From contig CAMLKX010000054.1 in assembly GCA_946480515.1 (NCBI GenBank), positions 1-9,768 on the forward strand: 9,768 nt of DNA, given 5' to 3'. Below, one piece after another: positions 1 through 9,768 of this stretch; the first letter of the stretch is position 1, and each line of letters opens with the position of its first letter. This stretch comes from an uncultured Sphingomonadaceae bacterium (GTDB taxonomy: Bacteria; Pseudomonadota; Alphaproteobacteria; Sphingomonadales; Sphingomonadaceae). The translations under genes were made by a program, and so were the position numbers. A model generated the notes under the pieces. It saw only the letters and a list, made by a program, of their open reading frames with translations. It was not told where the DNA came from and ran no database searches.

Positions 1-728
1 CTCCTATCAGGCAGGCGATTGCGGTTCAGGAGCATGCTCTGTCGGTCCTGCTCGGCAGAAACCCGGGACCAATCGAACGCGGGGGAACTCTGGAATCGCT
101 TCAGTCGCCTGCGGTCCCAGCCGGGCTTCCATCAGAGCTGCTGAACCGGCGTCCGGATATCCTTCAGGCCGAGCAGCAGCTGGTTGCATCCAATGCCCTG
201 ATCGGGGCCGCGCGTGCTCTCTTCTTTCCGCGCATTAGTCTGACCGGCTTGTTCGGCTTTGCCAGTGGTTCCCTCGAGACTTTGTTTAGCGGCCCAGCGC
301 GGACCTGGACTTTCACCGGCGATGTGGCGGGTCCAATCTACACCGGCGGGGGGATCGTCGCGGCAGTCGATCAGGCGGAAGCGAGGAGGGATCAGGCGTT
401 CGCCAATTACGAGTCGGTGGTTCAGAACGCATTTCGCGACGTCGAGGACTCTCTTGCCGATCTGCGTCACAGCCAGGAGCTGCGAACGACTCTCGAGCGG
501 CGGGTCATGGTTCTCCGCCGAGGACTCGATCTCGCCAATGAGCGGTACGAGAATGGCTATTCCGACTATCTTGAGGTGCTCGATACCGAGCGTGGCCTGT
601 TCTCGGCGGAGCTCCAGCTGGCTTCAGCGCGCGGTGACTATCAGCGGGCGTTGGTGAGCCTCTATCGGGCGCTCGGTGGTGACTGGACGGCCACGGCGCC
701 AGCGCAAGTCGGGGCAATCCGCCAGTGA
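1..728 (+). CDS. RND/FUSC-type efflux outer membrane factor, NodT/OprM family (5' truncated)
   Basis: This is the C-terminal part (about 242 residues, read from base 3) of an outer-membrane channel protein of the TolC/OprM superfamily, NodT subgroup. Such trimers span the outer membrane and periplasm and pass substrates from an inner-membrane pump and its adaptor to the outside. Visible family hallmarks are a GLPSELLNRRPDILQAEQQL stretch encoded at about 129-185, followed by an IGAARA-FFPRISLTG segment, a GPIYTGGGI segment near 331-357, and a long helix ending in ERYENGYSDYLEVLDTER, the typical end of the second OEP repeat. The N-terminus, and any lipobox, lies before the window. The stop overlaps the next gene's GTG start by four bases, which implies translational coupling to the HlyD adaptor. 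Family assignment is firm; the substrate is unknown. Confidence 0.93.
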   Translation, partial: PIRQAIAVQEHALSVLLGRNPGPIERGGTLESLQSPAVPAGLPSELLNRRPDILQAEQQLVASNALIGAARALFFPRISLTGLFGFASGSLETLFSGPARTWTFTGDVAGPIYTGGGIVAAVDQAEARRDQAFANYESVVQNAFRDVEDSLADLRHSQELRTTLERRVMVLRRGLDLANERYENGYSDYLEVLDTERGLFSAELQLASARGDYQRALVSLYRALGGDWTATAPAQVGAIRQ

Positions 729-1870
729 ATGCGGTCCCCGAGCAAGGCGGCAGTCAGCCTGTCGCCACCGAGATCGACGTTGGACCTGGCACTCCGCCTC
801 CGAACCCGATGCGCAAGGTCGTGCTGATTGCGGTCGGCGTATTGTTGATCCTGTTCATTTACCACGTCCTTTCGGACCGCTTCACCCCTTACACTTCTCA
901 GGCCCGGGTCGAGACATTCCTGACTCAGATCGCTCCTGAGGTTGCTGGCGACGTCCGCGAAGTTGGGGTGCGGGACAATGGCTTTGTCCGCAAAGGCGAG
1001 CTTTTGTTCAGAGTCGATCCGGAGCCCTATGAGCTTGCGATGCGCGCCGCGGAGGCGAATCTGTCGGTCGCGATGCAGGGTGCTGACGTCTCGGTTGCGG
1101 ATGTTGCAGTGGCGCAAGCGCAGCTCAGGAAGCACCGCGTTGATCTCGCTGCGAGCAGGGCCCTGGGGGGCATCGTCACCGATCTCGTCGACAAGCGCGC
1201 CCTTGCCGAGACCCAGGGCATCCGCGCCAGAGCAGAGGTGGCCAAGACCGAAGCTGACGTAACGCGGGCCCAGGCGGATCTGCGCAAGGCCCGCGCCAAT
1301 CTGGGCGATGCGGGCCTACGCAACGCCAAGGTGCGGCAGGCTCTCGCGGCTCTCGAACAAGCCCGGCTCGATTTGCGCAACACCGAGGTCCGCGCGCCCG
1401 CTCGCGGAACGGTCACCAACCTGCGCCTTGCCGTTGGGCAATATGTTGCGCCAGGCCAGCCGTTGCTGAGCTTTCTTGAAAGCGGCCCACGTTGGATCAT
1501 GGCCGACATGCGTGAAAATCAGCTTGGCAATGTTGCGCCGGGGCAGGAGGTGTTGATCGCCTTCGATGTGAAGCCAGGTCAGCTGTTCAAGGGTCGGGTT
1601 CACAGCATTGGCTGGGGTGTGAGCCAAGGGGACGAAACCCCGACCGGTCAACTGTCCACCATGCCCGCAGATCAGGGTTGGCTACGGAATCCGCAGCGCT
1701 TCCCGGTCCGGATCATGGTTCTGCCGGATGAGGAGACTGATGCCGGAATTGAGGTCGGCCGCAGTGGTGCTCAGGCCAACGTCATTATCTTCACAAGCGA
1801 CAAATCGATCATGAACCCGATCGGCAGGCTGTGGATCAAGATCGTCGCCCTCCTCAGCTATCTGCAGTAG
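725..1870 (+). CDS. HlyD/EmrA-family periplasmic adaptor (membrane fusion protein) of a DUF2955 exporter
   Basis: A 381-residue adaptor that would bridge the DUF2955 inner-membrane protein and the outer-membrane factor encoded just before it. A cytoplasmic tail of about 30 residues is followed by one membrane segment (about 31-49). Next come the first lipoyl half (about 63-100), a long Ala/Arg/Gln-rich coiled-coil hairpin (about 101-220), the second lipoyl half (EVRAPARGTVTNL, about 221-250) and a beta-barrel domain to about 355. The C-terminus, NPIGRLWIKIVALLSYLQ, matches the tail I know from adaptors paired with DUF2955/AaeB-like pumps. The start is a GTG at 725 inside the upstream stop (GTGA), and no strong ribosome binding site is evident, so coupling is likely. 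The 3' end may overlap the next gene by 40 bases. AaeA and EmrA are the nearest characterised relatives; the substrate cannot be read from sequence. Confidence 0.93.
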   Translation: MNAVPEQGGSQPVATEIDVGPGTPPPNPMRKVVLIAVGVLLILFIYHVLSDRFTPYTSQARVETFLTQIAPEVAGDVREVGVRDNGFVRKGELLFRVDPEPYELAMRAAEANLSVAMQGADVSVADVAVAQAQLRKHRVDLAASRALGGIVTDLVDKRALAETQGIRARAEVAKTEADVTRAQADLRKARANLGDAGLRNAKVRQALAALEQARLDLRNTEVRAPARGTVTNLRLAVGQYVAPGQPLLSFLESGPRWIMADMRENQLGNVAPGQEVLIAFDVKPGQLFKGRVHSIGWGVSQGDETPTGQLSTMPADQGWLRNPQRFPVRIMVLPDEETDAGIEVGRSGAQANVIIFTSDKSIMNPIGRLWIKIVALLSYLQ

Positions 1871-2922
1871 CTGTGCCAGTCTCCTCGTTACCGAACCGCG
1901 CGATTGATCCAGAAGAGGCCGCGCGCCTCCACTTCGTGCTCCGCTTCAGTTTCGGAACGGCGGGCGCCTTCACCATTTGCGAATGGATGGGGTGGCAGCC
2001 AGCCGCGCTCGCGGCGGTCCTCGCCGGCATTCTTTTGGCGAACCTGCCGGCAGCACCGCCGGCTAAAGTCGGCATTGGACTGGCGCTGATCATGACCATC
2101 TGGGCCTTCCTTGCCTACGCGCTGACCGTGCTTCTGTTCGAAACGCCGCACATCCTGTTCGGAGTGATCGGCCTGATCATGTTCCTGGCTTTTTCCGGAC
2201 TTGCTAATGCGAAGGGTCAGCTTCCGCTGACTCTGCTGCTGATTTGCATGGCGGTGATCCCGGTGATCACCCTCACATATCCCGACCTAGCCAATGTGGT
2301 TCGTGCCGCGTTCACGCGAGCAATGGCGGTGGCAGTCATTTTCATGTGGATTGCGTTTGCCGCGTGGCCGCGGGCGTTGATCAAGGCGCAGCCGCCGCCG
2401 CAGGGACCGGTCGAGCTTCCGGTGCTGACGGCGCTGATCGGCACGCTGATCGTTTTGCCGGTCATGCTCATCTACTGGCTGTTTGGCCTCACCGATGCCA
2501 TTCCTGTCCTGCTCACGACCGTGCTGCTCGTCGCGAAAATGGAAGAGGAACGCGGGACGGCGACCGGCCTCGTCAAACTGACGGTCAATTTTCTTGGCGG
2601 GTTCATCGCCTTTGCGGCCTATGGGCTGCTGCAGATCGCGCCCAACCTAGTGACTTTTGGGCTGCTCACGTTTCTTCTGAGTTTCACCTTCGCTCGACAG
2701 ATCGCGAAGGGTGGAGTCTGGGGCGGCAACGCGCTCCTGGCCTTCAACGCAACGATGGTCATCTTTGGCCTGCTGGTCCTGAAAGGCGAATCCAATTCGG
2801 GAACCTGGGGATCGCGGGTGGTGCAGTTCGGAATCGCCTGCGTTTTCGTTGTCGGCATGATGAAGCTTCTCTGGCCGCGACTAAAGCAGCGCCGGATCGC
2901 CGCTCAGTATAACGCCGGATAG
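1831..2922 (+). CDS. DUF2955 family inner-membrane transporter, half-size FUSC-like pump
   Basis: A 363-residue, very hydrophobic protein with about 11-12 predicted membrane segments in two similar halves. The first half spans about 36-180. A Pro-rich linker (QPPPQGP, about 187-193) separates it from the second half at about 196-347. The pattern and the HlyD neighbour fit DUF2955, a family related to fusaric acid resistance (FUSC/AaeB) proteins, but this protein is much shorter than AaeB (about 650 residues) and lacks its large cytoplasmic domain. It would be the energised component of the tripartite exporter. The start is uncertain: GTG at 1831 overlaps the adaptor by 40 bases behind a weak GGCAGG, while an in-frame GTG at 1873 would begin just after the adaptor stop. 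Both precede the conserved hydrophobic region, so the mature protein is little affected. Confidence 0.88.
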   Translation: MDQDRRPPQLSAVAVPVSSLPNRAIDPEEAARLHFVLRFSFGTAGAFTICEWMGWQPAALAAVLAGILLANLPAAPPAKVGIGLALIMTIWAFLAYALTVLLFETPHILFGVIGLIMFLAFSGLANAKGQLPLTLLLICMAVIPVITLTYPDLANVVRAAFTRAMAVAVIFMWIAFAAWPRALIKAQPPPQGPVELPVLTALIGTLIVLPVMLIYWLFGLTDAIPVLLTTVLLVAKMEEERGTATGLVKLTVNFLGGFIAFAAYGLLQIAPNLVTFGLLTFLLSFTFARQIAKGGVWGGNALLAFNATMVIFGLLVLKGESNSGTWGSRVVQFGIACVFVVGMMKLLWPRLKQRRIAAQYNAG

Positions 2923-2954
2923 GAACGCCTCGGAAGAAACCCTAGCGGGACCAA

Positions 2955-4466
2955 ATGCGACGCGAGCCATTCGCAGCCCTGTTCATAGCGATGGCCCTGT
3001 GGTCGTGCTCCGAAGCGCAGGATTCGAAAGAGCCATCGAAAAATCCAGCGACCGCATCGACCAAGCCGCCCGGCTACCAGGCTGCACTTCCGGAAGAATT
3101 GCGCGCAGTCGTGAACCGCCGGTTCACCGGGGACCTGGACGGAATGGTTGAGCGGCGGCTCATTCGGATCGCGGCACCCTTCAACCGCACCTTCTACTTC
3201 CTTGATGGAGGCGTCGAGCGCGGCCTCTCCTACGACTATGCCAAGCTGTTTGAGAAATCCCTCAACGAGCAGCTTGGGAGTGGCCATCCCGGCGTCCATA
3301 TCGTGATCCTGCCGATGCCGCGCGATGCGCTTCTGCCGGCCTTGAACGACGGCTTGGCGGACATGGCGGTTGCGCAATTGACCATCACTCCGGAACGGCT
3401 GCGGATTGCCGATTTCACAATCCCGACGCGAGCGAACGTCACTGAGATTTGGGTGAGCGGGCCGGGTTCCGTTCAGTCGAATTCGCCAGATGCATTCAGC
3501 GGACGACAGGTGTTCGTTCGCAAAAGTTCAAGCTACTTCCAGAGTCTTCAGTTGCTGAACAACCGGCTGACGGCAGCCGGCAAACCGTCGGTCGACATCC
3601 GTGAAGCCCCGGAAAATCTTGAGGACGACGACCTGCTCGAAATGGTCAGTGCCGGCCTGATCCCGGCGACCGTCACGGACGACTATCTCGCTCAGTTCTG
3701 GAAAAGGATTTTTCCCGGACTGGTGCTCAGTGAAGCCGCGCCTCTCCGGACCGGCGGGCAACTGGCGGTCGCGGTTCGCAAATCCAGTCCGCAGCTCAAG
3801 GGTGAATTGGATAGCTTCATTCAAGCAAACGGCTTGGACACCACGCTGGGGGCGATCCTCAACAAGCGCTACCTGAAAGACGCCGACTATGTGCGCAGCG
3901 CCGCCGCTGGCGAAGAGCGTCGCAAGTTTCTCGCGGTCGTTGACCTCTTCCGCAAATATGGCCGGCAGTATGATTTCGATTATCTGCTGATGGCCGCGCA
4001 GGGTTATCAGGAGTCTCGGCTCGACCAAGGCGCCAAGAGCCACGTCGGCGCAATTGGCGTGATGCAATTAATGCCTGCCACAGGCGAGGAACAGAAGGTC
4101 GGCGACATCCGCCAGATCGAGCCCAACATCCACGGCGGCGTCAAATATATGCGGTTCATTCGCGACCGCTATTTCGGTGACGAGCCGATCACCGCGATCA
4201 ACAAGGGCCTGTTCGCCTTTGCCTCTTACAACGCCGGGCCGGGCCGCATCCAGCAACTTCGCAAGGAAGCCGCAGCACGCGGTCTCGATCCCAACATTTG
4301 GTTCGGCAATGTCGAGCAGGTGGCAGCGGATCGCGTCGGTTCGGAACCCGTCACTTACGTCAGCAATATCTACAAATATTACATCGCCTACCGGTTAATC
4401 ACCCAGGAAGAGGCTGAACGTCAGAAGACCAAGGCCGCGTTGCGGGCGCAAGCAAAGGCTAGCTGA
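2955..4466 (+). CDS. MltF-like membrane-bound lytic murein transglycosylase, SBP_bac_3 plus SLT domains
   Basis: A 503-residue lipoprotein candidate that should cleave the MurNAc-GlcNAc bond of peptidoglycan to give 1,6-anhydro-MurNAc ends. The N-terminus is hydrophobic and ends in LWSC with Cys18 as probable lipidation site (Trp at -2 is unusual). Residues about 68-310 form a periplasmic solute-binding domain, seen in GLSYDYAKLFE, DGLADMAVAQLTITPER and LRIADFTIP. Residues about 325-485 form the SLT domain: the catalytic Glu is E353 in YQESRLD, followed by GVMQLMP (368-374), ASYNAGPG (423-430) and VTYVSNIYKYY (466-476). Length and domain order match MltF (about 518 residues in E. coli). It starts 32 bases after the DUF2955 gene with GGGA at 2947-2950, so co-transcription with the exporter is likely. 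In MltF the binding domain regulates the enzyme; its ligand here is unknown. Confidence 0.93.
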   Translation: MRREPFAALFIAMALWSCSEAQDSKEPSKNPATASTKPPGYQAALPEELRAVVNRRFTGDLDGMVERRLIRIAAPFNRTFYFLDGGVERGLSYDYAKLFEKSLNEQLGSGHPGVHIVILPMPRDALLPALNDGLADMAVAQLTITPERLRIADFTIPTRANVTEIWVSGPGSVQSNSPDAFSGRQVFVRKSSSYFQSLQLLNNRLTAAGKPSVDIREAPENLEDDDLLEMVSAGLIPATVTDDYLAQFWKRIFPGLVLSEAAPLRTGGQLAVAVRKSSPQLKGELDSFIQANGLDTTLGAILNKRYLKDADYVRSAAAGEERRKFLAVVDLFRKYGRQYDFDYLLMAAQGYQESRLDQGAKSHVGAIGVMQLMPATGEEQKVGDIRQIEPNIHGGVKYMRFIRDRYFGDEPITAINKGLFAFASYNAGPGRIQQLRKEAAARGLDPNIWFGNVEQVAADRVGSEPVTYVSNIYKYYIAYRLITQEEAERQKTKAALRAQAKAS

Positions 4467-4487
4467 GCCGTTCGAGGGTTCCTCAGA

Positions 4488-4511
4488 CTTGGGGTTTCCC
4501 CGGATGGCAGC
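4488..4511 (+). promoter_or_regulatory. Conserved regulatory element, copy A (before the patatin gene)
   Basis: The core reads TTGGGGTTTCCCCGGATGG from 4489. It contains a perfect GGGG-TTT-CCCC dyad and aligns without gaps to the copies at 6526-6549 and 9122-9145 (16 of 24 identical to each). Its first base is 76 bases before the ATG at 4564. A small GGATG-GCAG-CATCC inverted repeat overlaps its right end (4502-4515). I read it as an operator or activator site in the patatin/DUF3047 promoter, possibly for the response regulator encoded nearby. The binding partner is inferred. Confidence 0.6.
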
Positions 4512-4563
4512 ATCCTCAAGCAGCAGCGAAGATCAGCACTCCTGTTTTCAGCGGAGAGTAAGC

Positions 4564-5781
4564 ATGGCTGTGAGTGTCGGGCGTCGCCTGCTGATCATGC
4601 TCTCGACCGCGCAACTGGCGATTGCCGGCTGCTCGACTCCGCACCGCCTACCGGCTGTGCCATTGGGTCAAGTCGCGCTCGCGAGCCCAACATCAGCTCC
4701 GGTGCGCTATCTTGTCACTCGCGAAACGGAGAGCTTCGCCGCTGAGGCCCGTAGCGCTCTGGCGAAGGAGCAGCAATGGCTGGCCACCGCCGGACAAGGT
4801 GCTGAGCTCCCCCCGGCCAATTTCCTGGCGATTTCGGGCGGCGGCGATAACGGTGCCTATGGCGCGGGTTTTCTGAACGGGTGGACTCAATCAGGAACCC
4901 GGCCAGAGTTCAAAGCAGTCACGGGAATCAGCACCGGAGCGCTGATCGCTCCATTTGCCTTTCTGGGGCCCAGGTACGACTATGTGCTTGAGCGGGTTTA
5001 TACCCAGGTGTCGCAGAAGGACATTTTCAAGAAGCGAGGCATCGTCAAGGGCCTGTTCGGTGATGCGATGGCCGACACCCGACCGCTCGCGCTGTTGATC
5101 TCGTCCTACGTCAATCGTTCGCTGCTGGATCAAATCGCCGCCGAGTACGCCAAGGGCCGGTTGCTGCTGGTCGGAACCGCGAACCTAGACTCGCTCGAGC
5201 CGGTGATCTGGAACATGACCGCGATCGCGGCGAGCAAGGATCCGAATGCCGTCGAGCTGTTCAGCAAGGTCCTGCTGGCTTCGGCTTCCATTCCCGGCGC
5301 TTTTCCGCCGGTGATGATCGACGTGAATGTCGACGGCCGGCATTATCAAGAGATGCATGCGGACGGTGGAACGATGACTCAGGTCTTCCTCTATCCGCCA
5401 TCATTGAACATCGCGAATTCGCCGCAGCGCAAGCGCGCTTTGTACATCATCAGGAACGCTCGCATGGATGCGGATTGGGCGAGCGTCGAACGGCGCACCT
5501 TGAGCATCACTGCGCGGGCGATTGCATCGCTCACTCGGACTCAAGGGGTCGGCGACCTTTACCGGATCTTCGCGACTGCCCAGCGGGACGGCTTCGATTT
5601 CAACCTGACCTACATCCCGGCGACCTTTACGACTCCGCACATGGAAGAGTTCGACACCGCTTACATGCGGTCGCTCTATGACGTCGGCTTGCGCGCTGCG
5701 AAGGGCGGGCACCAGTGGCAGAAGTATCCACCTGGGTTCGAGGCGCCGATGCAGGCCTCGGCGGGATCAACCGCGAATTGA
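4564..5781 (+). CDS. Patatin-like phospholipase family lipoprotein
   Basis: A 405-residue predicted lipoprotein with a patatin-type Ser-Asp dyad, which in this family hydrolyses acyl esters of lipids. The signal peptide runs to IAGC with Cys23 as lipid-modified residue. The glycine-rich oxyanion region is SGGGDNGAYG (91-100), the nucleophile is Ser123 in GISTG (121-125), and the Asp is D267 in HADGG (265-269). ASIPGAFPPV (241-250) is also typical. I chose the ATG at 4564 because GGAGAG at 4553-4558 sits at good spacing and the signal peptide begins there. A longer frame back to TTG 4489 only adds a Ser-rich, non-conserved stretch running through regulatory element A. The gene stands alone after a 97-base gap and is followed within 5 bases by DUF3047. 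Fold and dyad are clear; lipase activity and substrate are inferred. Confidence 0.92.
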   Translation: MAVSVGRRLLIMLSTAQLAIAGCSTPHRLPAVPLGQVALASPTSAPVRYLVTRETESFAAEARSALAKEQQWLATAGQGAELPPANFLAISGGGDNGAYGAGFLNGWTQSGTRPEFKAVTGISTGALIAPFAFLGPRYDYVLERVYTQVSQKDIFKKRGIVKGLFGDAMADTRPLALLISSYVNRSLLDQIAAEYAKGRLLLVGTANLDSLEPVIWNMTAIAASKDPNAVELFSKVLLASASIPGAFPPVMIDVNVDGRHYQEMHADGGTMTQVFLYPPSLNIANSPQRKRALYIIRNARMDADWASVERRTLSITARAIASLTRTQGVGDLYRIFATAQRDGFDFNLTYIPATFTTPHMEEFDTAYMRSLYDVGLRAAKGGHQWQKYPPGFEAPMQASAGSTAN

Positions 5782-5786
5782 CGGTG

Positions 5787-6506
5787 ATGCACGCGGCCGT
5801 CGTTCTGTTGAGTGCGGCCCTGGCCTCGAGCAGCCTCGCACCGAACTGGATTGGCCGGTTTGCGAACCCAGGCAGTCCCCCTGCGCCTTGGAGGTCGGTG
5901 CCCTACGGCAATACGCCGCCAACACACTACCGCGTGGCTGCGATCAATGGAAAGACCGGCGTCGAGGCGATTGTCGATCGCAGCATGTCGCTGCTCGGCC
6001 GGCCGATCAGCGTGGACCTGACGAAGACACCGGTGCTGTGCTGGCGGTGGTTCGTCAGCAATCCAGTGCGAAAAGCGGACATGACCCGGCGCAGCGGCGA
6101 TGACTATGCCGCTCGAGTCTATGTCGCGTTCGATATTCCCAACTCGGCGCTATCCGGCTCCACCAAGCTCAAGCTGAAAATGGCGCGCAGCTTGCTAAAG
6201 CGGGATGTCCCTGACGCTGCGCTGGTCTATGTGTGGGACAATACCCATTCGGTCGGGACGGCGCGCAAGAGCAGTTACACGGATCGCTCGCAACTGGTCG
6301 TTGCCGAAACCGGCGCGTCGCGGGCTGGATCATGGGTGACAGAGCGCGCCGATGTCGCCGCGGATTATGCTCGCGCCTTTCCGCGCCAGCCAGGCACACC
6401 AACTTTTTTCGGCATCGCGGCCGATGGCGACAACACGAACAGCAAGGGGCGCGCGGGCTTCGCGGACATCCACTTCGTCGGCCGCGACGAGCCCTGCGCC
6501 GCCTAA
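5787..6506 (+). CDS. Exported DUF3047 domain protein
   Basis: A 239-residue protein matching DUF3047, a family without known function. An N-terminal hydrophobic stretch ending ALASSSLA suggests a Sec signal peptide (cleavage near residue 18). Hallmarks are VLCWRWFV (83-90), KADM (96-99), GDDYAARVYVAFD (104-116), LVYVWDN (146-152) and the C-terminal ADGDNTN-SKGRAGFADIHF region (212-230), where the Asp-rich DGDN turn is strongly family-like. It begins 5 bases after the patatin stop. A GTG directly before the ATG (5784) is an alternative start, and no good Shine-Dalgarno is visible, so translation is probably coupled to the patatin gene. The pairing suggests a shared envelope role, perhaps with the patatin product as lipid-acting partner, but no function can be assigned from sequence. 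Confidence 0.85.
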   Translation: MHAAVVLLSAALASSSLAPNWIGRFANPGSPPAPWRSVPYGNTPPTHYRVAAINGKTGVEAIVDRSMSLLGRPISVDLTKTPVLCWRWFVSNPVRKADMTRRSGDDYAARVYVAFDIPNSALSGSTKLKLKMARSLLKRDVPDAALVYVWDNTHSVGTARKSSYTDRSQLVVAETGASRAGSWVTERADVAADYARAFPRQPGTPTFFGIAADGDNTNSKGRAGFADIHFVGRDEPCAA

Positions 6507-6525
6507 ACCTTCCTACTGTTGAGAC

Positions 6526-6570
6526 CCTAGGGTTTGTCCTGATGGAGCCCGATGCCGCCGGGTGCGACCC
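6526..6570 (+). promoter_or_regulatory. Conserved regulatory element, copy B, with second conserved block (before the DUF3313 gene)
   Basis: The first block (6526-6549) begins CCTAGGGTTTGTCCTGATGG and includes the 10-base palindrome ACCCTAGGGT at 6524-6533. Four bases later comes a second block, GCCGCCGGGTGCGACCC (6554-6570), which is 14 of 17 identical to a block at the same offset in the copy before DUF2092 (9150-9166). The first base lies 81 bases before the ATG at 6607. The second block contains the inverted repeat GGGT-GCG-ACCC. It may be a bipartite binding site or a promoter element; the role is inferred. Confidence 0.6.
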
Positions 6571-6606
6571 CTACGGCTGGTCTCAACGATCGTCTGGAGC
6601 GAAGAT

Positions 6607-7284
6607 ATGACTGGCGTTCAAATCGCGCGGCTTGCCATTCCCGCACTGGTGCTGCTGGCGGCCGTGCCCGCCAACGCACAAACTGAAGATCACGCACCCG
6701 TTTCCCTGCGGTCGTCCCAACGGATGACTCAGGACCGGCCGGGAAGCGAGTCATGGACCTACGCTCAGCCGGTAACCCGCTTCACGCGGTACCGGACCGT
6801 GATCGTTGAACCGACAGCCGTATATCAAGGGCCTGATGCGCAGTTCGAAGGAATCGATCCTGGAGCACGCGCAACCTACGCGGGGATCATCACTCAGGAA
6901 CTGCGTTCGGAGTTGGCGAAGACCTTCCCGTCGCCGGCGACTGCTCAGGCCGATACGCTGCGTGTGAAGGTGACGATCCTCGGGGCTTCGAAAACGACGG
7001 GCGGAATCGCGACTGCGACTCGGGTGACGCCCTTTGGCTTTGCTACCAGTGCACTCAAGAGCGCCTTGGGCAAGACAGGTAGCCTGACCGGCTCTGTGCT
7101 TTACGCGGTCGAGGTGCACGACGCGAAGTCCAACGAGCTGCTGCTGGCAGCGGTGAGGCGCCGTACTCCCGATCCGCTTGATGTCCCCGCCACGCTCTCG
7201 ACCACCGACACGGTAAAGGCGGTCGCCCGGGATTTCGCAACGTCTGCCCGCCGCCGATTGGAAGAACTGACTCAAGCCAGGTGA
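6607..7284 (+). CDS. Exported DUF3313 domain protein
   Basis: A 225-residue protein with a clear Sec signal peptide: a hydrophobic core LAIPALVLLAAV and an ANA-Q cleavage site after residue 24. The mature part fits DUF3313, often found as small envelope proteins or lipoproteins in Proteobacteria. Here FTRYRTVIVEPTAVYQG (59-75) is the family's strand-rich opening. It is followed by a helix (ATYAGIITQELRSELAKTF, 89-107), LRVKVTILGA (118-127) and a LYAVEVHDAKSNELLLAAV strand pair (165-183). There is no lipobox, so the product is probably a soluble periplasmic or loosely attached protein. The ATG at 6607 is chosen because GGAG at 6596-6599 lies 7 bases upstream and the signal peptide starts there. 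The gene has its own upstream element (copy B) and is followed by a strong hairpin, so it may be monocistronic. Function unknown. Confidence 0.85.
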   Translation: MTGVQIARLAIPALVLLAAVPANAQTEDHAPVSLRSSQRMTQDRPGSESWTYAQPVTRFTRYRTVIVEPTAVYQGPDAQFEGIDPGARATYAGIITQELRSELAKTFPSPATAQADTLRVKVTILGASKTTGGIATATRVTPFGFATSALKSALGKTGSLTGSVLYAVEVHDAKSNELLLAAVRRRTPDPLDVPATLSTTDTVKAVARDFATSARRRLEELTQAR

Positions 7285-7292
7285 GTGGTAAG

Positions 7293-7305
7293 CCGGAAAC
7301 TCCGG
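7293..7305 (+). other. Small inverted repeat after DUF3313 gene
   Basis: CCGGA-AAC-TCCGG forms a 5-bp stem with a 3-base loop, 8 bases after the DUF3313 stop and followed by ATTTCT. It could contribute to transcript termination or 3'-end stability. The stem is too short to call a terminator alone. Confidence 0.3.
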
Positions 7306-7321
7306 ATTTCTCCCGAAGTTG

Positions 7322-7355
7322 GATGCTCTGCTCGGGGTTTTCCCAGCAGAGCATC
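7322..7355 (+). terminator. Strong hairpin after DUF3313, possible terminator or operator
   Basis: Two perfect 11-base arms (7322-7332 and 7345-7355, GATGCTCTGCT and its complement) can extend by three more G-C pairs (7334-7336 with 7342-7344) around a single unpaired C, leaving a five-base loop. It lies 37 bases after the DUF3313 stop and before the kinase gene. It has no downstream T-run, so it is not a textbook intrinsic terminator, though it could end or stabilise the DUF3313 transcript. The central GGGGTTTTCCC resembles the core of the regulatory elements, so a DNA-binding role is an alternative. Confidence 0.5.
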
Positions 7356-7365
7356 AATGTTCTTG

Positions 7366-7413
7366 CCCCATTAATTTACAAAAAACTTCTTACCATAGAT
7401 CAATAAAGAGATT
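7366..7413 (+). promoter_or_regulatory. AT-rich probable promoter region of the histidine kinase gene
   Basis: This stretch of about 48 bases is sharply more A+T-rich than the rest of the window. It contains a TTTACA at 7375-7380 that could act as a -35 element, but no convincing -10 hexamer at 16-18 bases. I therefore support a promoter-like region and not specific boxes. Confidence 0.35.
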
Positions 7414-7488
7414 ATGATTTGGGGCGAGGTAAGTGGCGTCTCCACCTCACCATGCTCGGGCAACGAAGCTTATCATGGGGGCTTGAAG

Positions 7489-8247
7489 ATGGACGGCCAT
7501 TCTAATCTCGACCGAGAATGTAGAGGGATTTCAGCCTTCTTCGGTGAACCTGCGGCCGACTGGGACGGAATCCTCAAGGCTCATGAGTATGAGCGGGAAC
7601 GACTCGGACAGGAGCTGCACGACTCGGCTGGTCAGTTGATGGTCGCGTTGCACCTCAGCTTTGCGCGGCTGCGGCATGATGACGAAAATCCGCTGCACGC
7701 CGAAATCATCGACGAGATTCAGGGGACGATCCACGAGATCGATCGGCAGATCCGATCGTTGGCTTTTCTCCATCATCCGGCTGAACTCGGCACACGGAAC
7801 GTTGACGTCGCCATTCAGGCGCTTGCGACTGGTTTCGGAAGCCGAAGCGGAATTCGGACCAGCTTCACAAGTCGTGGCAATTTCGCCGACCTGGATGAAG
7901 CCGTGGCGGTGGCTCTACTCCGCGTTGCGCAGGAAGCCTTGGTCAACATTCACCGCCATGCCCATGCCACCACCGCGATCATCGCCCTACGGAGCGGCGA
8001 TGGCATCATCGAACTCAGCATCTCTGACGACGGGGTGGGAATCCCCACCGCACCGCGTTCCGATGGGCAGGGCATTGGACTTCAGGGCATGCGGCATCGT
8101 GTTCGGTCGGTGAATGGCCAATTCGAGGCTGCCCGACTACGGCGCGGGACCATGATTTTCGTGCGGATTCCGATCGGGATGCGGGCAATCGCTGACGAGC
8201 CGATGGAGCGCAGTCGCGGGACCGGCGGTCGGGTGGCGGCAGGCTAG
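7489..8247 (+). CDS. Soluble sensor histidine kinase, HisKA_3/HPK7 (NarX/DegS-like) type
   Basis: A 252-residue kinase that should autophosphorylate on His and pass phosphate to a NarL/FixJ-type regulator. The dimerisation/H-box is ERLGQELHDSAGQLMVALH, with His44 the likely phosphorylated residue. The HATPase domain shows VAQEALVNIHRHAHA (N-box, N153), SISDDGVGI (D-box) and GQGIGLQGMRHRV (G-box). There is no membrane segment and no PAS, GAF or other sensor domain: only about 24 residues precede the kinase core. I prefer the ATG at 7489, with GGGGG at 7477-7481. An in-frame ATG at 7414 adds 25 residues with no recognisable features; it has AAAGAG three bases away and cannot be excluded. It converges on, and overlaps by four bases, the response-regulator gene, its probable partner. 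Confidence 0.88.
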   Translation: MDGHSNLDRECRGISAFFGEPAADWDGILKAHEYERERLGQELHDSAGQLMVALHLSFARLRHDDENPLHAEIIDEIQGTIHEIDRQIRSLAFLHHPAELGTRNVDVAIQALATGFGSRSGIRTSFTSRGNFADLDEAVAVALLRVAQEALVNIHRHAHATTAIIALRSGDGIIELSISDDGVGIPTAPRSDGQGIGLQGMRHRVRSVNGQFEAARLRRGTMIFVRIPIGMRAIADEPMERSRGTGGRVAAG

Positions 8248-8891
8248 GCCTGGATCAGCTGGTTGCGGACGGCGTAGCGCACGAGGTCGGCCGTCGTCTT
8301 CAGCTTTAGCTTGCGCATCGCGCTGGCGCGGTGAGTTTCCACCGTCTTGATGCTGATGTTGAGCCGGGCCGCGATTTCCTTGTTGATGTGACCTTCGGCG
8401 ACCTGCTGCACAATCTCGCGCTCGCGGTGGGTCAGGCTGCTCGCCACCGCCTGCGGCTTGCTGTCGAGGAACTGATCGAGAAGCGTGTCGGAGATCGCCC
8501 CTGAGAAGTAAGAGCGGTGGATCGACAATGCGTCGAGCGCTGCAATCAGGTGGCGTTCCGCGTCCGATTTCAGCACGAACCCGCGTACTCCCGCGCGGAG
8601 GATGTCCATGATGATCTCTTCGCGATCGTGCATGGTGTAGAGCAGGATCTCGATCCGGGGAAATTCCCGCTTGAGCGCATGGGACAGATCGAGGCCGTTC
8701 AGCTCTGGAATTGAGTAATCGAGGATCGCAATGTCGGGACGGCTTTCCCGCGCCAGCTCGAGTCCCGAACGTCCGTCAGCGGCTTCTCCAACCACCTGGT
8801 AGTAAGGTTTGGTTTCGACAAGCTGGCGAACACCGCGCCGGACCGCGTCATGATCATCGACAATGATTAACCGCCGGATCGGACTCGTCAT
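8244..8891 (-). CDS. NarL/FixJ-family two-component response regulator
   Basis: A 215-residue DNA-binding response regulator. The receiver domain (about 6-122) has the acidic pair D12/D13 (VDDHD), phosphoacceptor D58 in AILDYSIPELNG, T86 in LLYTMHD and K108 in FVLKSD, so all switch residues are present. The LuxR-type helix-turn-helix spans about 152-215: LTHREREIVQQVAEGHINKE, then IAARLNISIKTVETHRASAM with the recognition helix, then KLKLKTTADLVRYAV. The ATG at 8891 is the only credible start: an in-frame TGA lies seven codons upstream, and AGGA sits very close to the ATG. Its stop codon shares the palindrome CTAG (8244-8247) with the convergent kinase's stop. A copy of the conserved element lies upstream on its strand (9013-9036), which suggests autoregulation. 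The partner kinase is inferred from adjacency and family match. Confidence 0.93.
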   Translation of the reverse strand: MTSPIRRLIIVDDHDAVRRGVRQLVETKPYYQVVGEAADGRSGLELARESRPDIAILDYSIPELNGLDLSHALKREFPRIEILLYTMHDREEIIMDILRAGVRGFVLKSDAERHLIAALDALSIHRSYFSGAISDTLLDQFLDSKPQAVASSLTHREREIVQQVAEGHINKEIAARLNISIKTVETHRASAMRKLKLKTTADLVRYAVRNQLIQA

Positions 8892-9012
8892 ATCCTGCCA
8901 ATTCGTTGTTCATCGCGCCAAGACCAGCGCTCGACACGACCCCTGTTGACGCCTGGCACACACTCGACCCGCAACACGACCGAGCAGTTCGAACGTAAGA
9001 AGATCAGCATCA

Positions 9013-9036
9013 ATTCCAATCGGGGTAAACCCATAT
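9013..9036 (-). promoter_or_regulatory. Conserved regulatory element, copy D (before the response regulator gene)
   Basis: Read on the minus strand this is ATATGGGTTTACCCCGATTG, which satisfies every position of the shared core GGG(T/A)TTnnCC(C/T)GAT. It lacks the leading CTAG and has GATT where the other copies have GATG. The core has a GGGT-TT-ACCC dyad. It starts 145 bases before the regulator ATG, farther than the 76-82 of the other copies. This is consistent with autoregulation through a longer leader, but that is inference. Confidence 0.45.
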
Positions 9037-9099
9037 CCACGGGGAGGCCCGGTTTGGTCGTGCATGAGCGCAAACCCGTTTGGTTGAGCGACCCTCCAT

Positions 9100-9117
9100 A
9101 TCAGGGACGTTCCTGAT
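9100..9117. repeat. 18-base imperfect palindrome upstream of element C
   Basis: ATCAGGGACGTTCCTGAT has six-base complementary arms around an ACGT centre, with one mismatched pair. It ends five bases before element copy C, in the divergent control region. It could be a binding site for a second dimeric regulator, or part of the same regulator's site. No similar palindrome was found before the other two element-bearing genes. Confidence 0.4.
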
Positions 9118-9121
9118 CAGG

Positions 9122-9166
9122 CCTAGGGATTAGCCCGATGAAAGCGCTGGCCGCCGGATGGTACCC
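9122..9166 (+). promoter_or_regulatory. Conserved regulatory element, copy C, with second conserved block (before the DUF2092 gene)
   Basis: The first block (9122-9145) begins CCTAGGGATTAGCCCGATG and contains a GGG-ATTAG-CCC dyad. The second block, GCCGCCGGATGGTACCC (9150-9166), follows four bases later, exactly as in copy B. The first base lies 82 bases before the ATG at 9204. Across 45 aligned bases, copies B and C are identical at 31 positions without a gap, though the genes they precede are unrelated. Confidence 0.6.
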
Positions 9167-9203
9167 GCTGATGAACCGGGACATCCAGGCACGGAGATTT
9201 TGC

Positions 9204-9768
9204 ATGATGCGCCTTCACTCTTCGGTCGTGACGCTAGGGCTGTTGCTGGCGCTCACCGGGCCGGTTCAATCCGCTGCTCAAACGCCGCGCTCAGGCATGG
9301 CCATGCCCAGGCCTGCCGGGGATGACCCGATCGCCAATGAAGGCGTGATCGAAGATGGCGCGATCGACGCGCTCAAAGAGATGAGCGATTATCTGATGAC
9401 CGCGAAGACCCTCGCCATCACGTCTCAAGGCAACATCGACGTGGTCACGAACGACGGGCAGCGGATCCAGCTTGACGGGACGACGACCTACAAGGTGCGC
9501 CGCCCTGGCTTCGTCATTGATTACGTCAGCGACATCAAGAGCCGGCGGTTCATTTACGACGGCAAAAACTTCACCGTCTATTCTCCCAAACTTGGCTATT
9601 ACGCGAGCGTTCCGGCTCCACGCACCAACCGCGAAGTGCTCGATACCATCTACAACAAGTTCGGGATCGCACTCCCGCTGGAGGATTTGTTCCGCTGGGG
9701 CGATGGCTCCCGCAACGCGCGAATCGAAGCTTTGAAGTCCGCTTACAAGGTCGGGACGGCCACTCTCG
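9204..9768 (+). CDS. Exported DUF2092 domain protein (3' truncated by window edge)
   Basis: The first 188 residues of a protein that stays open to the end of the window. A Sec signal peptide is clear: hydrophobic LGLLLALTG, with cleavage likely near VQSAA-Q (residues 22-26). The mature part matches DUF2092: AIDALKEMSDYL (53-64), a NIDVVTNDGQRIQLDG strand pair (77-92), a YKVRRPG segment (96-102), RRFIYDGKNFTVYSP (114-128) and GIALPLEDLFRWG (154-166). The family is thought to have a LolA/LolB-like fold, which would suit a periplasmic lipid- or lipoprotein-binding role; that is an inference from family knowledge. The ATG at 9204 is chosen because GGAG at 9193-9196 lies 7 bases upstream; a second ATG follows directly at 9207. 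The gene is transcribed away from the response regulator and carries element copy C. Confidence 0.88.
   Translation, partial: MMRLHSSVVTLGLLLALTGPVQSAAQTPRSGMAMPRPAGDDPIANEGVIEDGAIDALKEMSDYLMTAKTLAITSQGNIDVVTNDGQRIQLDGTTTYKVRRPGFVIDYVSDIKSRRFIYDGKNFTVYSPKLGYYASVPAPRTNREVLDTIYNKFGIALPLEDLFRWGDGSRNARIEALKSAYKVGTATL

Follow-up and report, generated by a model that had tools for sequence, protein, structure and literature searches.

A 16-bp dyad recurs in front of several genes in a stretch of 9,768 nucleotides from an uncultured Sphingomonadaceae bacterium (assembly GCA_946480515.1, contig CAMLKX010000054.1, positions 1 to 9,768), and this whole stretch is called the window below. Judging from comparisons of sequence, we believe it highly probable that this element is the operator of a NarL/FixJ-type class II activator, encoded in the same window at 8244-8891, which would control its own gene together with an envelope regulon of many genes for secreted or membrane proteins, most of them without a known function, in Sphingomonas and its relatives. 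Such a regulon would be of a well-known kind and is apparently new and undescribed, as searches of open PMC text listed no paper that describes the regulator, the motif or the regulon in its title or the opening of its abstract.

A sequence-only reading of the window had drawn attention to the segments 4488-4511 (CTTGGGGTTTCCCCGGATGGCAGC), 6526-6549 (CCTAGGGTTTGTCCTGATGGAGCC) and 9122-9145 (CCTAGGGATTAGCCCGATGAAAGC), which stand before the genes for a patatin-like protein, a DUF3313 protein and a DUF2092 protein. The gapless similarity that it described was reproduced, with 16, 16 and 17 of 24 positions identical in the pairwise comparisons and 14 columns shared by all three segments, and so were the distances of 76, 81 and 82 bp to the starts at 4564, 6607 and 9204, all of which are ATG. 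The downstream genes belong to separate Pfam families (patatin, DUF3313 and DUF2092) and are as unrelated as had been claimed. The written consensus matches exactly at the second and third sites but needs three mismatches at the first. With up to three mismatches, this pattern is matched four times in the window where 0.35 matches were expected, a count that none of 200 shuffles reached; because the pattern was derived from the same sites, this test is optimistic and only suggestive. Two other candidates were set aside. The site at 2928-2945 (minus strand), 9 bases before the MltF-like gene, has two mismatches to the pattern, lies outside the top 14 of the independent matrix described below and is probably due to chance. 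The repeat at 7335-7349 has the appearance of a weak site, but it lies within a hairpin after DUF3313 (judged by eye) and was discarded.

Upstream stretches of 260 bp were collected for the regulator gene of the window and for 27 homologs, 28 in all; after removal of two near-duplicates, they were searched by simple expectation-maximisation at a width of 18 bp. The resulting motif, TAGGGTTTACCCCGATGG, has a site in 26 of 26 upstream sequences, and its log-likelihood of 209 compares with 55-62 for five mononucleotide shuffles. L004 and L220 are the near-duplicates, both of L003; they were also dropped from the column statistics, the second-dyad test, the envelope-bias count and the 92/9 site count given below, and were retained in the 103/9 site count and the survey of distances from site to start. 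Genes and starts outside the window were taken from a simple in-house caller, which may misplace starts and includes some doubtful open reading frames.

A scoring matrix was built from 25 regulator-promoter sites of other loci, with the window's own site left out. Its highest score in the window was 23.1 bits at 9017-9034 (minus strand), 125 bp before the start of the regulator gene, followed by 22.2 bits at 6528 (DUF3313) and 16.7 bits at 4490 (patatin). The fourth site, 13.9 bits at 8656-8673 (plus strand), is within the regulator gene and may be chance; the DUF2092 site, 13.2 bits at 9124, ranks fifth, below this intragenic one. In 200 Markov-simulated windows, the mean best score was 9.9, the 95% point 15.1 and the largest 20.0, and the third best score was at most 10.62. 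The three sites noted at first were confirmed by this independent matrix, but the strongest site of the window, before the regulator's own gene, had been overlooked. All 26 upstream sequences, the window's included, thus carry a predicted operator before the regulator gene, which points to autoregulation.

At a threshold of 12 bits, the matrix gave 153 sites in the window and 25 regulator loci, 142 of them outside called genes. Without the main regulator promoters, the 25 loci had 103 non-coding and 9 coding sites, against means of 3.15 and 9.2 for column-permuted matrices, and none of 40 permuted matrices reached the non-coding count of 103. This count still includes the second regulator promoters of L005 and L006; when these and the two near-duplicate loci were removed, the remaining 23 loci had 92 non-coding and 9 coding sites against 2.95 and 8.45. 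Expressed by length, the 25 regulator loci had 148 sites in 490 kb, the loci with remote homologs from many phyla 76 in 853 kb, and the regulator-free loci, each of which had been fetched for holding a pattern match, 11 in 81 kb. A control with the reversed pattern was too lenient (14 matches versus 1 even in 58 regulator-free genomes), and therefore we relied on column-permuted matrices, gene location and co-occurrence. Simulated windows, permuted matrices and genome counts all place the motif above background frequency, and it is mostly outside genes (92 versus 9 in the 23 loci; 49 of 60 in regulator-bearing genomes). Chance or shared DNA ancestry could have been suspected as long as just three copies, 24-mers with 16-17 of 24 positions identical, were at hand; given the de novo motif, the matrix controls, the promoter alignments, the co-occurrence and the unrelated downstream families, we practically discount it.

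The motif was also found to track the regulator. The strict pattern P1 (TCRGGGNTTNNCCYGATGG, at most one mismatch) was counted in 397 genomes from the family of Sphingomonas caseinilyticus, the named organism with the most similar regulator (83% identity, type strain NSE70-1; the highest identities among the homologs found were 91% and 90%). A search of these genomes for the regulator at E <=1e-60, in which the best 7 candidates per genome were scored, found it in 15. All 15 regulator-bearing genomes matched P1 (56 matches), against 126 of the 382 others (162 matches, counted by hand). At least three matches were present in 11 of 15 regulator-bearing genomes and in 5 of 382 others (Fisher p 7e-15, a value that overstates independence, to the detriment of our reading, since the genomes with both regulator and motif are kin). 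These counts are lower bounds, since so strict a pattern as P1 misses the CTAGGG-type sites of the window itself. In an overlapping set picked via regulator loci, P1 matched 13 of 15 Sphingomonadales (42 matches) and 16 of 23 genomes overall. The proportion of intragenic sites was 11 of 60 in regulator-bearing genomes versus 21 of 30 in regulator-free ones. A looser pattern, NRGGGWTTNNCCYGATG, gave a poorer separation, with 18 matches in 15 regulator-bearing Sphingomonadales versus 14 in 58 without the regulator.

The family of Microvirga lupini, whose regulator (L018) is 47% identical, showed the same tendency. The regulator was found in 3 of its 119 genomes; Microvirga has six regulator copies and four perfect P1 sites, and the remaining 118 genomes together have one such site. 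For 3 of the 8 regulator copies in this family (L245, L246 and L249), a site of 13.8, 12.5 and 11.9 bits, respectively, lies within about 150 bp upstream of the copy's own gene. Self-control thus appears clear in Sphingomonadales and only partly seen outside them. One genome of this family with no regulator match at E 1e-60 (G416) carries one perfect palindromic site of 24.1 bits (L253, 1045, minus strand).

The motif could also be bound by a different NarL-family paralog of the same genomes, the neighbouring regulator gene being merely one target. Multiple close copies of the regulator are present in some genomes (two or more in G063, G064 and G258; six in G076), and one site, in L149, precedes another NarL-type regulator gene. 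We nevertheless hold this to be unlikely, because the site precedes the regulator gene in every one of the 26 homologs, is dense nearby and is rare in genomes without the regulator, for which self-control is the simplest explanation.

The sites have a preferred position and orientation. On the side of the GATGG end, 134 sites have a start no more than 300 bp away, and for 77 of these the distance to it is 40-80 bp. On the other side, a start was found for 115 sites; the distance is 40-80 bp for 14 of them and 150-200 bp for the largest group (41), as expected where genes diverge. Column statistics for 117 sites showed the dyad TCRGGGWWWWYCCYGA, followed by T-R-G; beyond a stretch of little signal, the next marked columns are an A at position 40 and a T at position 44. 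After a flank-similarity filter, which kept 114 of 128 sites, the A was present in 64 and the T in 55 of 114 sites; both together were present in 43, whereas at other offsets the same pair averaged 5.1 and never exceeded 22. If the A and T are taken as -11 and -7 of a -10 element, transcription would start near position 51 and the dyad centre would be at about -43.5, over the -35 region; in class II activator promoters, the dyad is centred around -41 to -44 and overlaps that region, and the predicted layout would be of this type. The predicted leaders are 24, 29 and 30 nt for the three window genes and 93 nt for the regulator. A second, weaker dyad was seen upstream: its mean score peaks at -22 (z 4.8), and it scores above 0 bits at -24 to -21 in 27 of 117 sites, whereas 0 of 117 did so when control offsets were used. 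In Microvirga, two perfect P1 sites are spaced 22 bp.

This layout bears on two other explanations. The first is that the regulator is a repressor, with the dyad over -35 blocking RNA polymerase until the kinase withdraws phosphate; the dyad does cover the predicted -35 region, and its position alone fits either sign. The conserved ATGG in place of a good -35 box, as at activator-dependent promoters, and the second dyad upstream at -22 would both favour activation, and we consider repression rather unlikely while giving it some weight. The second is that an alternative sigma factor recognises the element as its promoter signal, in keeping with its fixed spacing to the A...T signal and its one preferred orientation. 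This is very improbable in our opinion, as a 16-bp dyad core, repeated in weaker form 22 bp upstream, has the shape expected for a dimer, and the element tracks the regulator.

From the computed site, position, orientation, spacing and co-occurrence we infer binding, activation rather than repression, phosphorylation, the kinase partnership and function, and we propose the following model of class II activation. Two half-sites of approximately TCRGGG would form the 16-bp dyad (TCRGGGWWWWYCCYGA), on which one dimer would be bound. Centred near -43.5, the dyad would overlap the -35 region, which is replaced by the conserved ATGG, and from there the phosphorylated regulator would activate transcription in the class II manner. 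The weaker dyad 22 bp further upstream may hold a second dimer at some promoters. The regulator would activate its own gene in a positive loop and, in the window, the patatin-DUF3047 genes, DUF3313 and, through a weaker site, DUF2092. In relatives, the predicted targets would add sulfatase and the formylglycine-generating enzyme, Phenol_MetA_deg outer-membrane proteins, DUF202, DUF4136, bestrophin-like and other membrane proteins. The convergent soluble kinase would be the likely phosphate donor, and the signal would probably be cytoplasmic.

Conservation of the predicted operators was evaluated by aligning promoters of relatives whose DNA is approximately 64-81% identical to the window, and the element formed a conserved island in these alignments. 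In the DUF3313 promoter, GGnTTTnnnCnGATGGAG is invariant across five aligned sequences (window included), and the site scores 15.0-21.2 bits in all four relatives. In the patatin promoter, the GGGTTT and GAT columns are invariant in five aligned promoters, with sites of 19.6 bits in L001 and 18.9 bits in L216. In the DUF2092 promoter, the element is aligned in four promoters, where TCAGG of the second dyad is invariant. In the six-sequence alignment of the regulator promoter, the element is in register in five; L216 is misaligned there and has its own site at 10714. The conservation in relatives is strong before DUF3313 and the regulator and weak before DUF2092.

Several observations weigh against the proposed operator and its regulon. 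The patatin promoters of L214 and L215 reach no site above 11.3 bits. The DUF2092 sites are weak in three aligned relatives (7.1, 7.7 and 11.3 bits), which makes the DUF2092 promoter the least certain of the four. The -10 boxes of the window are individually poor (GAAGAT, GACCCC, TACCCG and ACGTTC), and the signal is visible only in the ensemble; second dyads occur in a minority of promoters, and in one of four in the window (clear at DUF2092, absent at the other three). The regulator-bearing Sphingomonadales G060 and G072 have no P1 match. In the family of Microvirga, the regulator-bearing genomes G446 and G463 have no perfect P1 site, and five of the eight regulator copies have no site within about 150 bp upstream of their gene. 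In 64 loci with remote non-Sphingomonadales homologs (L015-L053 and L056-L080), 93 sites were found at 12 bits versus 41.4 for permuted matrices; 14 of these 93, all non-coding with 0 coding, come from the alphaproteobacterial loci L015, L017 and L018.

Taken together, the sequence checks support the earlier proposal that the regulator would control this cluster of exported proteins. Its scope is refined in two respects: the predicted regulon extends beyond the cluster and includes the regulator's own gene. The weak DUF2092 sites of relatives and the merely partial signs of self-control outside Sphingomonadales leave the chief evidence intact.

A Pfam scan was made of 89 proteins encoded downstream of sites. 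Among the 25 of 31 families listed, the counts were DUF3313 (9), Phenol_MetA_deg (8), DUF2092 (7), DUF202 (7), FGE-sulfatase (5), bestrophin-like (5), sulfatase (4), DUF4136 (4), SBF (3), patatin (2), Omp85 (2) and others. In other parts of the genomes, sites brought in additional sulfatases and SulP, AI-2E and DUF1269 proteins. By a crude predictor, 65 of 90 targets were signal- or membrane-like versus 131 of 326 neighbours; the 90 targets include a truncated regulator gene (L006:10070-10648) that is absent from the 89 proteins scanned. We think that 'envelope' is a fair label for the target set, and a single shared biological role is not yet visible. It is an evenly balanced proposal, in our judgement, that a conserved alphaproteobacterial envelope regulon under an autoregulated NarL-type regulator with a soluble kinase unites families that lack an assigned role (DUF3313, DUF2092, DUF3047, DUF202, DUF4136 and bestrophin-like proteins) and the sulfatases with their maturase in one common response, which might for instance remodel the outer membrane or its anionic groups when a cytoplasmic signal arrives.

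Two side observations concern the extent of the target set. In L149, the gene behind a site (707-1447) encodes a second, different NarL-type regulator, which hints at a regulatory cascade. In the relative G258, a 14.9-bit site (L216, 4805, minus strand) precedes the pump operon's OEP gene by 153 bp, and the pump may join the regulon there; the start of the window's pump operon is beyond the window edge.

These results supply a regulator together with a predicted operator and promoter layout, all open to direct testing, and they join several protein families without an assigned function through predicted shared control in sphingomonads. Regulon membership is a strong functional clue where the sequence itself gives no hint, and the operator offers a way to predict more members.

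Ten genes of the window were named by Pfam profile search (Table 1). The DUF3047 gene is probably co-transcribed with the patatin gene, as 5 bases separate them. DUF2092 is linked to LolA in a passage of PMC4520260. The regulator has a receiver domain (PF00072, 87 bits) and a GerE/LuxR-type helix-turn-helix domain (PF00196, 68 bits), and Asp58 was read by eye as its phospho-acceptor. The kinase and regulator genes are convergent with 3' ends that share 4 bp, which is unusual for a cognate pair, and this arrangement means that they do not form one operon; in L001, the two genes are tail-to-tail without overlap. The partnership of the kinase with the convergent regulator is likely, given their neighbourhood. 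The window kinase contains only the HisKA_3 and ATPase domains, and in 15 relatives the kinase has 223-427 aa, with no membrane segment in 14 of 15 (simple hydropathy rule). On these grounds, the signal sensed by the kinase is likely cytoplasmic. A long hairpin (GATGCTCTGCT / AGCAGAGCATC) without a T-run was seen by eye at 7318-7355, 3' of DUF3313, and is perhaps a terminator. Rfam gave 0 matches in the window at the gathering threshold.

Table 1. Predicted operators and named genes of the window.
Feature	Position	Strand	Remarks
Predicted operator before patatin gene	4489-4507	+	dyad 16-mer 4489-4504 plus ATGG extension; 16.7 bits
Predicted operator before DUF3313	6527-6545	+	dyad 16-mer 6527-6542 plus ATGG extension; 22.2 bits
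Predicted operator before DUF2092	9123-9141	+	dyad 16-mer 9123-9138; 13.2 bits
Second (tandem) dyad TCAGGGACGTTCCTGA	9101-9116	+	exactly 22 bp upstream of predicted DUF2092 operator; 11.2 bits, symmetric matrix, offset -22
Predicted operator before regulator's own gene	9017-9035	-	23.1 bits, best of the window; motif found de novo in 26/26 homologs
OEP gene (pump operon)	3-728		Pfam
HlyD gene (pump operon)	725-1870		Pfam
DUF2955 gene (pump operon)	1831-2922		Pfam
Solute-binding/SLT protein (MltF-like)	2955-4466		Pfam; MltF model 155 bits vs cut-off 354
Patatin-like protein	4564-5781	+	PF01734; lipoprotein-like signal (by eye); proposed target
DUF3047 protein	5787-6506	+	PF11249
DUF3313 protein	6607-7284	+	PF11769; proposed target
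HisKA_3 histidine kinase	7489-8247	+	Pfam; no recognisable sensor domain; start shifted to 7489 by eye
NarL/FixJ response regulator	8244-8891	-	Response_reg + GerE; proposed binder
DUF2092 protein, LolA-like	9204-9767	+	PF09865; proposed target; continues past window edge

The regulator shares its fold family with NarL. Its solved relatives are NarL, VraR and DevR, the best being NarL (1a04, E 1.4e-30), and it scores 136 bits with the NarL model, below the cut-off of 250. The NarL operator consists of two 7-bp half sites placed 2 bp apart (7-2-7), and the letters of these half sites differ from those of the window operator. The best named NCBIfam match of the regulator is MctR of Rhizobium (NF052445), with 189 bits against a curated cut-off of 300, and there is no mctP-like symporter among the ten genes of the window. 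FixJ of rhizobia is, like the window system, a two-component regulator whose site is an imperfect palindrome, 16-18 bp long, according to a section of PMC4999443, in which two protected regions, (-69, -44) and (-57, -31), are described at the fixK promoter. The predicted window layout is comparable with that of FixJ at fixK. However, the FixJ site given in that section, TAAGTAATTTCCCTTA, is TAAG-type, whereas the window operator is TCRGGG-type and does not correspond to a FixJ operator; the regulator also scores 89.3 bits with the FixJ model against a cut-off of 255, and the targets differ too. DevR/DosR of mycobacteria is distant in sequence (solved DevR 3c3w, E 8.5e-26, after NarL and VraR), belongs to another phylum and controls other genes. 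Its promoters nevertheless resemble the layout in the window: in the portion of PMC3029386 that deals with them, DevR/DosR is an autoregulated NarL-type regulator with packed boxes, of which the proximal one lies over -35 and a weaker one is bound cooperatively.

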